In this document: positions 23,860 to 29,479 of the stretch, in pieces
How the letters are laid out: the number at the start of each line of letters is the position of its first letter
How positions within the stretch are numbered: the stretch's first letter is position 1
Origin: Prosthecobacter debontii
GTDB taxonomy: Bacteria; Verrucomicrobiota; Verrucomicrobiia; Chthoniobacterales; Chthoniobacteraceae
DNA: 64,000 nt
Assembly (NCBI GenBank): GCA_945861385.1
Contig: CAMAUI010000001.1
Location: 1-64,000, forward strand
Direction: 5' to 3'
Notes under the pieces: model-generated
Seen by the model: only the letters and a program-made list of their open reading frames with translations
The model's database searches: none
What the model was told of the DNA's origin: nothing
Position numbers and translations under genes: made by a program

Positions 23860-26091
23860 TTACACGCCCGGCAGGACGGAGACGAAGCCGCCGGTGGCGG
23901 TCACGTTGCCCGTGATGACGCCGAGGTGGTCCACAAAATCCCCCGCCGTGCCCGGCGTGGTGACGGTGAACAACGATCCGCCCGCGACGAGTTGCGTGAG
24001 CTTGCCGGTGACCGCGATGGTGTCCTGGATCGCACCGCCCACGATGATCCGCGCGACGGCGCCGGCGAAATCGAGGTCCACGTCCAGGTCGCCGCCGATC
24101 GCCAGCCGTCCGAGGAAGGCGCCGCCGAAGGAATAGGTGTCGTCTGCGGACGTGCCGGCGATGTCGCCGATGTTGAATCGCGCAGTCTTCGTCACGTTTC
24201 CGGCCACGAGCACATGCGTCTGGCCCGCGGTGCCATCGCTGTTCGGGTCAAACGTCCCCGTGTTCAGCACCCCGCCGAAATCGCCGCCAACCGAGAAGCC
24301 GATGGTATCCGCATCGCCCTGGTCCCGGATCTCGTTCACCGTGATCCGAGTCCCACTCGCCACATGTCCGCCGACCTGGAGTTCGAAGTCATCGGCGATC
24401 ACGATCGCGTCGAAATCCCGGCCCACCGAGAACAACATATTGTCACCCTGAAGGAACTGGCTGCCCTTCAGCACCGAGCCGCCCACGCTCATCGTCAGAT
24501 CCCCGGAGCCGGTCATGAACAGGCCCTGGAAGTTCCCGCCGATGGTCCACGTCTGCTGGCTGTCGTCGGTGAGGAATGAGCCTCCGAGGACGTTGCCGGT
24601 GACGTTCATCGAGATGTCGTCGTCCGAGGAAATGGCGGTCGTCTTGAGCAAGTTCCCGCCCACCGTCAGCGACACGCCGCCGGTCGTAGAGATGAAGCGT
24701 GAATTCGCCACGGTCCCCGTCGCGTTCACCACGATTTCATTGTCGGTTTCGATGATCGTGCGGGTCAACCCACCGGTGACCGTGATGGAGACGTCGTCGA
24801 AATTTGAGGCCCGGAACCGCGTGTCGGTGATGCTGGAGCCGATGGTCCCGGTCGTGTCGCCACTGAAGCGGCTTTTTTTAACGGATCCGTCGATCGTGAG
24901 CAGCGAATCGGAGTGACCGCTGCTGATGTCGGAATCCGTCACGCCTCCAGTGATGTCGAGGAACAGTTCGTTATCCGCCTCTATGGTCGATTTCATCACG
25001 CTGCCTGTCACCGTGATGGATGCGTCGGACGAACTGACAAGCGTCGCGGCAGCGACATTGCCCGTCACCGTGCCGAACAAATCGGAGCTTCCTGCCACGA
25101 AGGTGCCGGACATATTGCCGCCCACTGTGAAGGTCAGCCCGTTGTCACACACCGCCGACGCACCGGGCAGGACGTTCCCCCCGACGGTCAGCGTGATACC
25201 GCCAGACCCTTGAACCCGCGCGCTGGATTTGAGGTCGCCGCTCACGTTCATGTTCACGTCGCTGGACTCCGTGGAAATAAGCCCGGAGAAGTGCCCGTTC
25301 ACGATCACGTTATCGAAGTCGTCGCTGTGGAGCACCGCCACGGGTGCGACGTCTTTATTAAACGTCCATACTCCATTGGTATTCCCATCAATATTGATCG
25401 TCCCGTTGAAGAGGCCGTTGAAGGTCGCGGCGCCCTGGAACTGGTTTCTCTGCACCCAACTGAAGTTGACGCCCGTGGTGCCGTTGATCGTCAGGTCGGA
25501 GCCAGCGGTTCCCGAGCCCCCGACAAACAGCGTGCCATCAATCAAATCCTTCCCGTCCCCGAGGATTATGTCCGCGTCCAAGTCCCCTCGCACCGTGATG
25601 ACCGCGTCCTTGTGCAGCCCGCCGGAAAGCTGGAGCCCGACATCCGCCGCATCGCCCACGATCGTGTCCACCACGAGTCCTCCATCCGCGGAGAAATTGA
25701 CGCCTTTGAAACTCCCCAGTGTGAACGTAGAACCCCCGGTCGAGTCCGGGACCGAATAAATGCCACGGAGAATTTTGTCCGACGTGATGTCGCCCATGAG
25801 AACCACGCCCGCACCCGCGCCGACATCCACCGAATAGGTCAGCGTGAAATTCGAACTCGCGCCCGTGATGACCGCGCTGGCGATGTCATCGGTGTCGTCC
25901 ACGGGGTTGCCGCCACCGTCGAGGAAGTTCACCGATCCCGCGCTGCCCGCAATCCGGACGGTGACGACATCGCCGTCAGCATCGGTGAACGTGGCCTGGG
26001 TGGTTCCGCCGATGGACAGCGGGTTGACGATGGTCGCGGGAGCGATGCGCTGCTCGAGCGGCTCCGGGTTTGAGTGCAGGGATGGTTTCAT
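23860..26091 (-). CDS. Large beta-repeat surface protein with N-terminal LEQRIAPA motif
   Basis: 743 residues from ATG 26091, chosen because AAAGGTG lies at ribosome-site distance. There is no ordinary signal peptide; instead the N-terminus reads NPEPLEQRIAPATIV, close to the LEPR-type motif at the front of large exported planctomycete and verrucomicrobial proteins. The rest is a run of short beta-strand repeats of the kind 'GGxVxxTxxxSDDDISMNVTGNVLGG', rich in Gly, Asp, Ser, Thr and Val with almost no Cys. This is the pattern of a right-handed beta-helix or filamentous surface protein. It is the first gene of a pair with the sulfotransferase-glycosyltransferase fusion. Location at the cell surface is inferred. 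Confidence 0.82.
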   Translation of the reverse strand: MKPSLHSNPEPLEQRIAPATIVNPLSIGGTTQATFTDADGDVVTVRIAGSAGSVNFLDGGGNPVDDTDDIASAVITGASSNFTLTYSVDVGAGAGVVLMGDITSDKILRGIYSVPDSTGGSTFTLGSFKGVNFSADGGLVVDTIVGDAADVGLQLSGGLHKDAVITVRGDLDADIILGDGKDLIDGTLFVGGSGTAGSDLTINGTTGVNFSWVQRNQFQGAATFNGLFNGTINIDGNTNGVWTFNKDVAPVAVLHSDDFDNVIVNGHFSGLISTESSDVNMNVSGDLKSSARVQGSGGITLTVGGNVLPGASAVCDNGLTFTVGGNMSGTFVAGSSDLFGTVTGNVAAATLVSSSDASITVTGSVMKSTIEADNELFLDITGGVTDSDISSGHSDSLLTIDGSVKKSRFSGDTTGTIGSSITDTRFRASNFDDVSITVTGGLTRTIIETDNEIVVNATGTVANSRFISTTGGVSLTVGGNLLKTTAISSDDDISMNVTGNVLGGSFLTDDSQQTWTIGGNFQGLFMTGSGDLTMSVGGSVLKGSQFLQGDNMLFSVGRDFDAIVIADDFELQVGGHVASGTRITVNEIRDQGDADTIGFSVGGDFGGVLNTGTFDPNSDGTAGQTHVLVAGNVTKTARFNIGDIAGTSADDTYSFGGAFLGRLAIGGDLDVDLDFAGAVARIIVGGAIQDTIAVTGKLTQLVAGGSLFTVTTPGTAGDFVDHLGVITGNVTATGGFVSVLPGV

Positions 26092-26108: not shown

Positions 26109-26251
26109 AGCAAGCCGGTGGGTGGCAACGGAAAACTCAGGGGTCGCCACTTCGAGCGCACCGCGCGCCTGTCGGTGCCAGATTTGATCTGCCGCTCCCA
26201 TGGCCGACGCATGAGGCCTCATCGCCCCGGCGGGATTTTCTCCGCCCGGAT

Positions 26252-27190
26252 TCACTCCCCCGCTTCGAGCGCAAGCTCCGCGCACCCGAGGATGCCGGCG
26301 TCATTTCCGAGCGCGGCGGCCACCAGGCGGAGTTGTTCGTTGAACAGCTTGCTGGTGCGGTCGCGCAACGTCCGGCGGATCGGCGAAAAAATCAGCTTAC
26401 CCGCCGCCGCGATGCCACCGCCGACGACGATCGTGTCGGGGTTGAGAAGCCAGACGGCGTTGGTGAGTGCCGCGCCGATCTCCGTGCCGAGTGTGTCCCA
26501 CATCGCGAGTGCGATCGGATCCCCGGCCTGCGCGAGCTTGTCGAGGTCGGCGGGCGTGCATTCCTCGGGTGAGCGGACGTTTCCCGATGCCACGTAAAGG
26601 CGCGAGGCGCGTTCGGCGATGTTGCGATTTCCCACATACACCTCGAGGTCGCCGGGCGTGCCGTACACACCGCGCGGCCCGTGCAGGTCAATGCTCGTGT
26701 GGCCGAGTTCCCCTGCCGCAAACCGGCTCCCGCGGTAGAGCCGCCCATCGAGAATGAGCCCGCCGCCGACGCCGGTGCCGAGAGTGATGCAGAGCGCATT
26801 CGTGGCCCCGCGCGCCGCGCCGTGGCGGAACTCGGCGTATGCCATCGCGTTCGCATCGTTCTCGATCGCGGCGCGCAGGCCGGTGCGCTCGCGGAGCATT
26901 TTCAGCAGCGGCACTTCGTCCCAGCCCGGCACATTCGCGAGTCCGTGGACGAGTCCTTTGTCCGTATCCACAAAACCGGGCAGCCCGACGCCGACGGCGA
27001 CGACATCCGGGTGATCGCGGCGCAGCGCGGCGATTGCATTGAAGAGCGCATCGAACAACGTCCCCGCGGCAATATGGCTGCGGGTATCCACCTTCTCGCC
27101 ACGCTGGATGATGACGCCGGCCTGGACCACGGCCGGCTTGATGCCGGTGCCGCCGAAATCAACACCGATGGCTTTTGCGGGATTACTCAT
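26252..27190 (-). CDS. ROK-family sugar kinase lacking the zinc-site cysteines
   Basis: 312 residues from ATG 27190 (MSNPAKAIGVDFGGTGIK); the frame continues upstream but only as the antisense of the neighbouring gene. The phosphate loop is VDFGGTGIK, the catalytic Asp lies in ENDANAMAYAE, and the second ATP loop is ITLGTGVGGG. The ROK zinc site normally reads CxCGxxGCxE; here it reads GVYGTPGDLE, so all three Cys are gone while GELGHT and the Glu remain. The fold and ATP site look intact, so it is probably an active kinase for glucose, N-acetylglucosamine or similar without structural zinc. It is divergent from another ROK-like gene at 27266. Confidence 0.88.
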   Translation of the reverse strand: MSNPAKAIGVDFGGTGIKPAVVQAGVIIQRGEKVDTRSHIAAGTLFDALFNAIAALRRDHPDVVAVGVGLPGFVDTDKGLVHGLANVPGWDEVPLLKMLRERTGLRAAIENDANAMAYAEFRHGAARGATNALCITLGTGVGGGLILDGRLYRGSRFAAGELGHTSIDLHGPRGVYGTPGDLEVYVGNRNIAERASRLYVASGNVRSPEECTPADLDKLAQAGDPIALAMWDTLGTEIGAALTNAVWLLNPDTIVVGGGIAAAGKLIFSPIRRTLRDRTSKLFNEQLRLVAAALGNDAGILGCAELALEAGE

Positions 27191-27265: not shown

Positions 27266-28762
27266 ATGATTTCCCGCATCGTGAAAACCACTCCGCTCCT
27301 GCGCCCGCCGCTCGATCCCGGCGTGCAGCATGCCGCGCTGTGGAACCGTGCCTTTCGCGCGCTCGGGCCGGCGCAACCGCTGGCTGTCGCGCTCGAACGG
27401 CCCGATGGAACGGTGTCCCGGTTCGATTTCAAAATCCTGCCGCACTCCGGCGCGAATGCCGCGCTGAATCTCCGCCACGTCGAGCGCCTCGTGAAATTCC
27501 TGCTCTGGTCGCGCGGCGCATCGCGCGTCGTGATCGGCGGCGAACCGGCCCTCGCGGCTGAATTGCGGGCGATCTACTCCGCGGGCGGCGCGCGAAAATT
27601 TGACTTCGATTTTTTCAGCGAGGTGTACGGCGCGCTCGATATTGAATCCTGCGGCTTTGATTCCACGCCCGCTGCGCACGAGACGCAGATGCCGCTCGGG
27701 CGGCATCTCGATGGCTGCCGCATCGGCTTCGATCTTGGCGGCTCGGACCGGAAGTGCGCGGCGCTCATCGAGGGCAAAGTCGTCTTCTCCGAGGAGGTCG
27801 CGTGGGACCCGTATTTCCAGGCCGACCCGCAGTATCACTACGACGGCATCGCCGACACGCTGCGCCGCGCCGCCGCCCATCTTCCACGCGTGGATGCCAT
27901 CGGCGGCAGCGCCGCTGGCGTGTATGTCGGAAACGAAGTCCGCGCCGCGTCGCTCTTCCGCGGTGTCTCGCCGGAGGATTTCGAGCGCAGAATCCGCCGC
28001 ATCTTTTTCGACCTGCAACGCGAGTGGGGCGGCGTGCCATTCGAGGTCGCCAATGACGGCGAAGTGACCGCGCTGGCCGCCTCGATGAGCTTCGGAGAAA
28101 ATCGCGTACTCGGCATCAGCATGGGCACGAGCGTCGCCAGCGGCTACGTCACAGCGAGCGGCGCGATCACGCCGTGGCTGAACGAACTCGCCTTCGCACC
28201 GGTGGATTATCGCTCCGTGGCTGCGACGCCCCCGTCGTCCCGATACATCGGGATTTCTGCGGCGCCCCCGCCGCACGAGTCGTCCTTGCGACGAGGCGTC
28301 GCGGATACATGTTACGACGAGGGCGTCGCAGCCACGGACGAATGGAGCGGCGACCTCGGATGCGCTGTCCAATTTTTCTGCCAGCAGGGCGTCGCCCGCC
28401 TCGCCCCGCTTGCGGGTATCGAACTGCCAGCAGGGATGAAATTCGCCGACCGCCTCGTGCAAGTGCAGGAACTCATGGCTGCCGGCGACCCACGCGCACG
28501 GCGCATCTACGAGACCATCGGCATCTGCTTCGGCTACGCCATCGCGCACTACGCGGAGTTCTACGACATAGGCACGCTGCTCATCCTCGGCCGCGTCACG
28601 ACCGGCGAAGGCGGCAACCTCCTGCTCTCAAAAGCCGGCGAAGTACTGCGCGCGGAATTCCCCGCCCTCGCCGAGAAAATCAAGCTCCGCACGCCGGACG
28701 AAAAAGACAAGCGCCACGGCCAGGCCGTCGCCGCGGCGAGCCTCCCCAGAATCCCCCGGTAG
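27266..28762 (+). CDS. ROK-like actin-fold protein with an in-frame palindromic insertion
   Basis: 498 residues from ATG 27266 (MISRIVKTTPLLRPP), 75 bp from the divergent ROK kinase start. A sugar-kinase-type ATPase core is visible: IGFDLGGSDRKC near residue 153, AIGGSAAGVYVG, VANDGEVTALAAS and GISMGTSVASGY. The C-terminal half keeps family character (EWSGDLGCAVQFF, YAEFYDIGTLLILGRVTTGEGG). Between them, residues about 317-357 are encoded by the 125-bp inverted-repeat element at 28214-28338 and look unlike the rest (PPSSRYIG, APPPHESSLRRG). The frame is intact on both sides. The substrate is unknown; neighbours point to amino-sugar metabolism. Confidence 0.8.
   Translation: MISRIVKTTPLLRPPLDPGVQHAALWNRAFRALGPAQPLAVALERPDGTVSRFDFKILPHSGANAALNLRHVERLVKFLLWSRGASRVVIGGEPALAAELRAIYSAGGARKFDFDFFSEVYGALDIESCGFDSTPAAHETQMPLGRHLDGCRIGFDLGGSDRKCAALIEGKVVFSEEVAWDPYFQADPQYHYDGIADTLRRAAAHLPRVDAIGGSAAGVYVGNEVRAASLFRGVSPEDFERRIRRIFFDLQREWGGVPFEVANDGEVTALAASMSFGENRVLGISMGTSVASGYVTASGAITPWLNELAFAPVDYRSVAATPPSSRYIGISAAPPPHESSLRRGVADTCYDEGVAATDEWSGDLGCAVQFFCQQGVARLAPLAGIELPAGMKFADRLVQVQELMAAGDPRARRIYETIGICFGYAIAHYAEFYDIGTLLILGRVTTGEGGNLLLSKAGEVLRAEFPALAEKIKLRTPDEKDKRHGQAVAAASLPRIPR
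28214..28338. repeat. Palindromic element inserted in frame within a coding sequence
   Basis: Arms of 25 bp (28214-28238 and 28314-28338) are complementary with a single mismatch. The middle contains further stems: CCCGAT-AC-ATCGGG, TGCGGCG-CCCC-CGCCGCA and CGACG-AGG-CGTCG. The element has no stop codon in the host gene's frame and adds about 40 residues to the ROK-like protein. Its reading resembles a mobile palindromic element rather than protein-coding drift. It differs in stem sequence from the intergenic elements elsewhere in the window. Confidence 0.85.
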
Positions 28763-28874: not shown

Positions 28875-28883
28875 TACTTCCCC

Positions 28884-29144
28884 ATGACGACAACGCTGCA
28901 AAAATGGGGCAACAGCCAGGGGATTCGCCTGCCAAAACCACTCATCGAAGCTCTCCGGCTCAAGGAAAGCGCGGAAGTGAATCTGACGCTCGAACCAGAA
29001 CGCAACGCCATCGTGATCACCGCGGTGAGGCCGGAGCGGAAAACCCGCGGCAGGCACCGCATCGAGGATCTCGTGGCGGCGATGCCGCGCAAATACAAGG
29101 CGGAGGAATTCGGCTGGGGCGTTTCGGGCCGGGAGGTCTGGTAG
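28884..29144 (+). CDS. mazE: MazE-type antitoxin
   Basis: 86 residues from ATG 28884. The front MTTTLQKWGNSQGIRLPKPLIEAL is the AbrB/MazE swapped-hairpin DNA-binding fold, with the family hallmark KWGNSxGIRLPK. The acidic and basic tail (EDLVAAMPRKYKAEEFGWG) is the part that usually wraps the toxin. It neutralises MazF and represses its own operon. Its stop overlaps the GTG start of the toxin (TAGTG), the classic toxin-antitoxin coupling. Confidence 0.92.
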   Translation: MTTTLQKWGNSQGIRLPKPLIEALRLKESAEVNLTLEPERNAIVITAVRPERKTRGRHRIEDLVAAMPRKYKAEEFGWGVSGREVW

Positions 29145-29479
29145 TGCCGGCGTACGTGCCGCGGCAGGGCGATGTGGTGGCGCTGGATTTCGACCCGCAA
29201 GCCGGCCACGAGCAACGCGGGCGCCGCCCGGCGCTCGTGGTGAGCAAGGACGCTTTCAACCGCGGCACGGGCATGGCCATTTGCTGTCCCATCACGAACA
29301 CGGATCGCGCGGTGCCATTCCACGTCCCGATTGAGGGCCGGACTTCGCTGACGGGCTTTGTGATGTGCGAGCAGGTGAAGTCGCTCGATTTCAAAACCCG
29401 GCGGATGAAATTCATCGAGCACGCCTCGCAGGAGGTGCTCGACGATGTCCTGGCGATCATTGATGCGTCAGTGTTCTGA
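29144..29479 (+). CDS. mazF: MazF-type endoribonuclease toxin
   Basis: 111 residues starting at GTG 29144, chosen because GGGAGG lies 7 bp before it and the codon overlaps the mazE stop. The PemK/MazF core is clear: VPRQGDVVALDFDPQAGHEQRGRRPALVVS, then CCPITNTDRAVPFHV, and TGFVMCEQVKSLDF with the conserved substrate-binding face. MazF cuts single-stranded mRNA at short sequence-specific sites. Length is typical of the family and no key part appears missing, so the pair is probably functional. Confidence 0.93.
   Translation: MPAYVPRQGDVVALDFDPQAGHEQRGRRPALVVSKDAFNRGTGMAICCPITNTDRAVPFHVPIEGRTSLTGFVMCEQVKSLDFKTRRMKFIEHASQEVLDDVLAIIDASVF

Follow-up and report, generated by a model that had tools for sequence, protein, structure and literature searches.

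How did a long palindrome come to lie in frame within a protein gene? In the window (the whole 64,000-nucleotide stretch of DNA analysed here), an open frame on the plus strand (P0001; ATG, 27266–28762; 498 amino acids) encodes a predicted ROK-fold protein, and a palindromic element of 125 bp occupies positions 28214–28338 of the same strand. We consider that the best full explanation of this element is a REPIN of a RAYT/REP system, in which two GTGG-tagged REPs stand head to head around nested inner REPs and an additional hairpin. On this reading, to which we assign a probability of about 0.86, the element would be a non-autonomous unit that was moved by a RAYT and is now translated as a loop within a gene under selection.

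Structure and site of the palindromic element

The two arms of the element (28214–28238 and 28314–28338) are 25 nt each, lie 75 nt apart and are 96% complementary, with the single mismatch that the first-pass annotation had described. The RNA fold of the element reaches −89.2 kcal/mol, compared with −59.0 ± 3.7 for shuffled sequences (z = −8.1), and none of 200 shuffles was as stable. No stop codon occurs in the frame of the host gene or in four of the five other frames, and the element occupies 41 codons, encoding residues 317–357 (SVAATPPSSRYIGISAAPPPHESSLRRGVADTCYDEGVAAT), in agreement with the initial description of a stop-free insert adding about 40 residues.

Comparison with the orthologues of P0001 (identity 49–83%) reveals the empty site. 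The site is covered in 16 orthologues, and in every one of these exactly five residues (e.g., DDAPV) lie between a DYR-type motif and (D/E)EWSGD, where the window protein has 41; none of them has the inserted stretch. Thus, 15 nt of the orthologues correspond to 123 nt here, a net gain of 36 codons that keeps the frame. Because the element is stop-free and the change in length is a multiple of three, the insert would be read through as a 41-residue loop, the REPIN having taken the place of a five-residue linker. In the AlphaFold model of P0001 (mean pLDDT 82.8), residues 319–353 are the sole internal segment below 50 within an otherwise confident ROK model, and residues 317–357 are probably a disordered loop rich in Ala, Pro and Ser.

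The assignment of the host protein is structure-based, because Pfam yielded no match for P0001; NCBIfam gave nothing useful. The best match of the AlphaFold model in the PDB is the glucokinase of E. faecalis (E = 9e-16), and the list of folds is headed by glucokinases, N-acetylglucosamine kinases and Mlc; as modelled, the fold is that of a ROK protein. By inspection, the gene is adjoined on the opposite strand by a canonical ROK sugar kinase gene (26252–27189; MSNPAKAIGVDFGGTGIKPAVV...), and small MazE/AbrB-like and MazF-like genes lie directly 3′ of it (28883–29479, plus strand).

It might be supposed that the ROK-fold gene is dispensable and decaying and that it tolerates the element as a lesion, its frame kept by chance. 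The orthologue is indeed absent from many relatives, the protein being present in 18 of 57 related genomes, the window genome included. However, dN/dS relative to G005 is 0.20 overall (0.21 before the insert and 0.18 after it), as in intact pairs, and it is likewise about 0.2 on either side in the comparisons with G004 and G003; these ratios point to purifying selection on P0001 outside the insert, and the gene would have stayed under selection after the insertion. Moreover, the ROK-fold gene carries no further lesion, and the same kind of insertion is found in single-copy housekeeping genes (see below). We regard decay as improbable.

The repeat family and its cognate RAYT within ClpB

RAYTs are single-strand transposases of the HUH/Y1 class that recognise tagged hairpins, and the element is built of repeats of this kind, each a short stem-loop with a GTAG-type end tag, here GTGG. 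The outer left REP (28217–28238, plus strand; GTGG-CT-GCGACGCCCCCGTCGT) and the outer right REP (28314–28335, minus strand; GTGGCTGCGACGCCCTCGTCGT on that strand) each differ by one mismatch from the REP consensus GTGGCTGCGRCGCCCYCGYCGC, and they form an inverted pair with the tags facing outward. The inner left REP (ATTTCTGCGGCGCCCCCGCCGC; 28253–28274, plus strand) has three mismatches to the consensus and is separated from the outer one by a nested hairpin, TCCCGATACATCGGGA (28238–28253), a near-perfect palindrome that is found again in many other copies of the element. The inner right REP is represented by an inverted stem, GCGACGAGGCGTCGC (28288–28302, minus strand), with a loop one base short, which scored under the threshold of the consensus scan and was read from the sequence.

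The REP unit of the window genome is GTGG-CT-GCGRCGCCCYCGYCGC, also written GTGG-CT-GCGACGCCC(C/T)CGTCG(T/C). When up to three mismatches were allowed, the unit had 67 matches in about 30 places of this genome, as against 6 for a control in which the pattern was read backwards; it is thus both high in copy number and dispersed, and further copies of the element exist, as the first-pass annotation required if its reading was to stand. Some of these copies are nearly complete, a large number are halves, and many lie between genes. Eight intergenic copies (L002, L008, L009, L012, L013, L018, L021 and L030) lie within larger elements whose outer inverted repeats are close to AGCCGGAACGATGCAGT and ACTGCATCGTTCCGGCT, and three others (L003, L004 and L024) lie within another larger element with the ends ATACCAATTGC and GCAAGTGGTAT. 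Exact 21-mer matches in Streptomyces, Nocardioides, Kribbella and a Trueperaceae bin look like chance occurrences in GC-rich genomes.

REPs are usually extragenic, whereas the window element and several others are intragenic. Besides the ROK-fold gene, REPs without a transposase occur in frame in DnaE, IleRS, ValRS, PurL and a peptidase U32 of the same genome; those in DnaE are absent from the relatives G003, G004, G005, G011 and G012, in which the site is a naturally variable linker. The intragenic position is not disqualifying, because intragenic REPs have been published: they were reported in 2013 from the verrucomicrobium O. terrae, which has the top intragenic GTAG count and in which GTGG is a variant of the GTAG tag, and the same study includes inserts in DNA-repair genes and in the tRNA synthetases of other species (Di Nocera 2013, PMC3733652). 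The in-frame REPs alone are one more case of that phenomenon, and the first-pass annotation, which knew of nothing like it in Verrucomicrobiota, was mistaken on this point, although its central claim, that a dispersed palindromic element had inserted in frame and become part of the coding sequence, stands.

What settles the identity of the window element as a REPIN is the presence of a cognate transposase between the same REPs. Among seven places with a Y1_Tnp domain (PF01797) in the window genome (G000), one (C17:25892–26125, within an element spanning C17:25505–26232; L091, L105) lies between inverted REPs at 25505–25526 (plus) and 26211–26232 (minus), inside ClpB. The first 21 nt of its left outer REP are identical to those of the window element, and on the left of both, the outer REP is followed by the inner REP; as a whole, the two share the layout of outer REP, inner REP, interior, inner REP and outer REP. 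This RAYT has no stop codon of its own and no clear start, and its open frame is continuous with that of ClpB at either end, joined by the REP-encoded linkers VAATPPSPSVAAAPSP and RSGDGAAATDGDEGVAAT; Pfam assigns Y1_Tnp to the same protein as the AAA domains and the D2 domain of ClpB. Its HUH motif, MPNHVH, is intact, and its tyrosine lies in RYIQRNP.

We compared ClpB among 38 genomes. The RAYT insert is present in G000, G002, G005 and G014; the other intact ClpBs lack it, and a few drafts show only fragments of ClpB. Apart from the fused gene, G000 has a single Clp-type match, a paralogue at 54%. The RAYTs of the four ClpBs group as one clade (100/98), which fits a single inherited insertion; their dN/dS is 0.10–0.32, with dS saturated in some pairs, and the HUH motif and the tyrosine are kept, G005 lacking the NP after the tyrosine.

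How, then, might the element have reached the ROK-fold gene? We propose that it was moved by a RAYT of its own RAYT/REP system in a Chthoniobacterales-type genome, for which the RAYT in ClpB (C17:25505–26232) is the closest candidate. The window element would correspond to the ClpB-RAYT element with the transposase exchanged for a short spacer, and because the layout is otherwise the same, it looks like a non-autonomous derivative. Some points count against this explanation. At the ROK site, 15 bp were replaced, and a search for a target-site duplication there revealed none. Single REPs are the presumed substrates of RAYTs, and the route by which REPINs move is unsettled. A further RAYT of the family may also be missing from the assembly, a draft of 174 contigs with 93.7% completeness.

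The initial comparison was with the Rickettsia palindromic elements (RPEs), and a repeat of that sort, unrelated to the REP/RAYT system, lacking a dedicated transposase and favouring coding genes, would account for in-frame insertion in unrelated genes and for a sequence open in five of six frames. This likeness does not extend to kind, however. The tag of the window family is GTGG, whereas RPEs, as described in PMC3733652, have the tag CGTC and no dedicated transposase; here the same REPs flank a cognate RAYT, and many copies in the window genome are intergenic. An RPE-like repeat is therefore a very improbable explanation.

RAYTs within other housekeeping proteins

RAYTs of a second type, each a complete HUH transposase domain, lie in frame in AlaRS (C149, L267), ThrRS (C46, L272) and RecG (C13:29870–30319, L106) of the window genome; AlaRS is single-copy in this assembly. 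A further RAYT, which has its own ATG, reads into RecF without a stop (C86:3977–4510, L104), as does one in G003 (C622, L204). The linker between RAYT and RecF in G000 belongs to another REP family (GKPAACPTVAQAAGLRERRTQAE). For the ThrRS fusion, AlphaFold gave a model that is poor overall (pLDDT 60, pTM 0.36), probably owing to a thin and partly misaligned alignment; its RAYT part (residues ~311–435) is confident, and ThrRS alone appeared among the matches listed in a PDB search with this model. At the corresponding ThrRS site, the close relatives G001, G008, G014 and G004 (L273, L274, L275 and L276) have an unrelated variable loop of ~55–80 residues.

When 388 genomes of the phylum were searched with a profile for the second type (A4), ten strong matches were obtained (E ≤ 6.3e-57), and all ten lie within open frames of 730–1316 residues that are host genes. 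Three are those in G000; the hosts of the other seven, named by reading the flanking sequence, are AlaRS (G118, G133, G207, G319 and G377) and RecG (G052 and G239). Across these 388 genomes, the strong matches thus place this clade nowhere but in long host frames. With the ClpB-type profile (A5), searched in 289 genomes, 47 of the 150 matches listed are in frames of at least 600 residues and 97 are in frames of fewer than 400 residues, the size of a free-standing RAYT; individual long-frame cases need checking, because GC-rich DNA can contain such frames by chance. Pfam detected a host domain together with Y1_Tnp in PriA, an Eco57I-type methylase, a B12-radical-SAM protein, LeuRS, HypF, AlaRS, MetH and ValRS; IspG, CarB and HsdR-like hosts were named from the translated sequence or the host domain alone.

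In the RAYT tree, the RAYTs of AlaRS, ThrRS and a methyltransferase group together (94/85), as do those of PriA and AlaRS (98/92). That RAYTs are not sorted by host gene strongly suggests that they have moved between genes. The embedded RAYTs retain the HUH motif and the tyrosine, and their dN/dS is mostly well below 1, which strongly suggests purifying selection.

Might the insert nevertheless be missing from the final protein, through RNA-level or translational skipping or through protein splicing? A very stable hairpin could in principle promote bypass. No bypass is needed, however, because the frame is open, and no intein or Hint splicing domain was matched by Pfam in any of the fusion or REP-carrying proteins scanned; we consider such removal highly improbable. 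That a chimera of assembly or binning placed the repeat in the gene is hardly credible: although the draft is fragmented and assemblies tend to break down at repeats, frame and homology resume exactly on either side within a 101-kb contig, and the same class of insertion occurs in independent genomes, some of 7–40 contigs.

With the RAYT-moved REPIN as our explanation of the window element, we are somewhat inclined towards a wider reading, in which a RAYT lineage of Verrucomicrobiota has turned intragenic. Its members, flanked by REPs and lacking a stop, would reside as internal domains within proteins that the cell cannot do without (AlaRS, ThrRS, ClpB, RecG and others), translated by the host, jumping between genes and leaving behind REPINs like that in the window. 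The REPs would then have two roles, as the ends used in transposition and as linkers that are translated, and a host could not easily delete an insert from an essential frame; the element would be an intein-like translational hitchhiker without splicing. After a search of the literature, we regard as new the occurrence of a transposase in frame inside housekeeping proteins and of a RAYT clade found nowhere else in 388 genomes; the full-text search, whose coverage left out most subscription journals, yielded the study of intragenic REPs as the sole precedent and no description of a RAYT forming an internal domain of a host protein. They may have been overlooked because automatic annotation probably records just AlaRS or ClpB. 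If the fusions are made, this would represent a mode of persistence of selfish DNA between transposons and inteins and a natural way for enzymes to acquire entire domains, and the function of RAYTs, a long-standing question, would become testable in single proteins.

Comparison with known systems

Inteins with homing endonucleases sit in frame inside housekeeping proteins, and the embedded RAYTs resemble them in placing a DNA-cutting domain in frame in such proteins at recurrent sites (ClpB, AlaRS, ThrRS and RecG). Unlike inteins, they have no splicing domain and are of the Y1/HUH class; linkers encoded by the REPs tie them to the host sequence, and they appear to remain part of the protein.

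RPEs (Ogata 2000, 2002, cited in PMC10969869) are likewise in-frame palindromes that add tens of residues in unrelated genes; the window family differs from them in its GTGG tag and its RAYT, RPEs having a CGTC tag and no dedicated transposase according to PMC3733652. The GTAG-superfamily REPs of O. terrae resemble the window family in being tagged short hairpins that form head-outside dimers, are dispersed and flank a RAYT (PMC3733652). In contrast to these, the window unit extends to 125 bp, or 41 codons, by virtue of nested inner REPs and a hairpin, and the cognate RAYT of the window REP is itself in frame in ClpB.

With REPINs and RAYT/TnpA-REP (PMC3116915, PMC6006769), the inverted REP pair as a mobile unit is shared, as is the REPtron arrangement, in which a transposase with an HUH motif and a tyrosine is flanked by the same REPs. 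RAYTs known so far are described as separate genes, whereas those found here have no stop of their own and are inner domains of host proteins.
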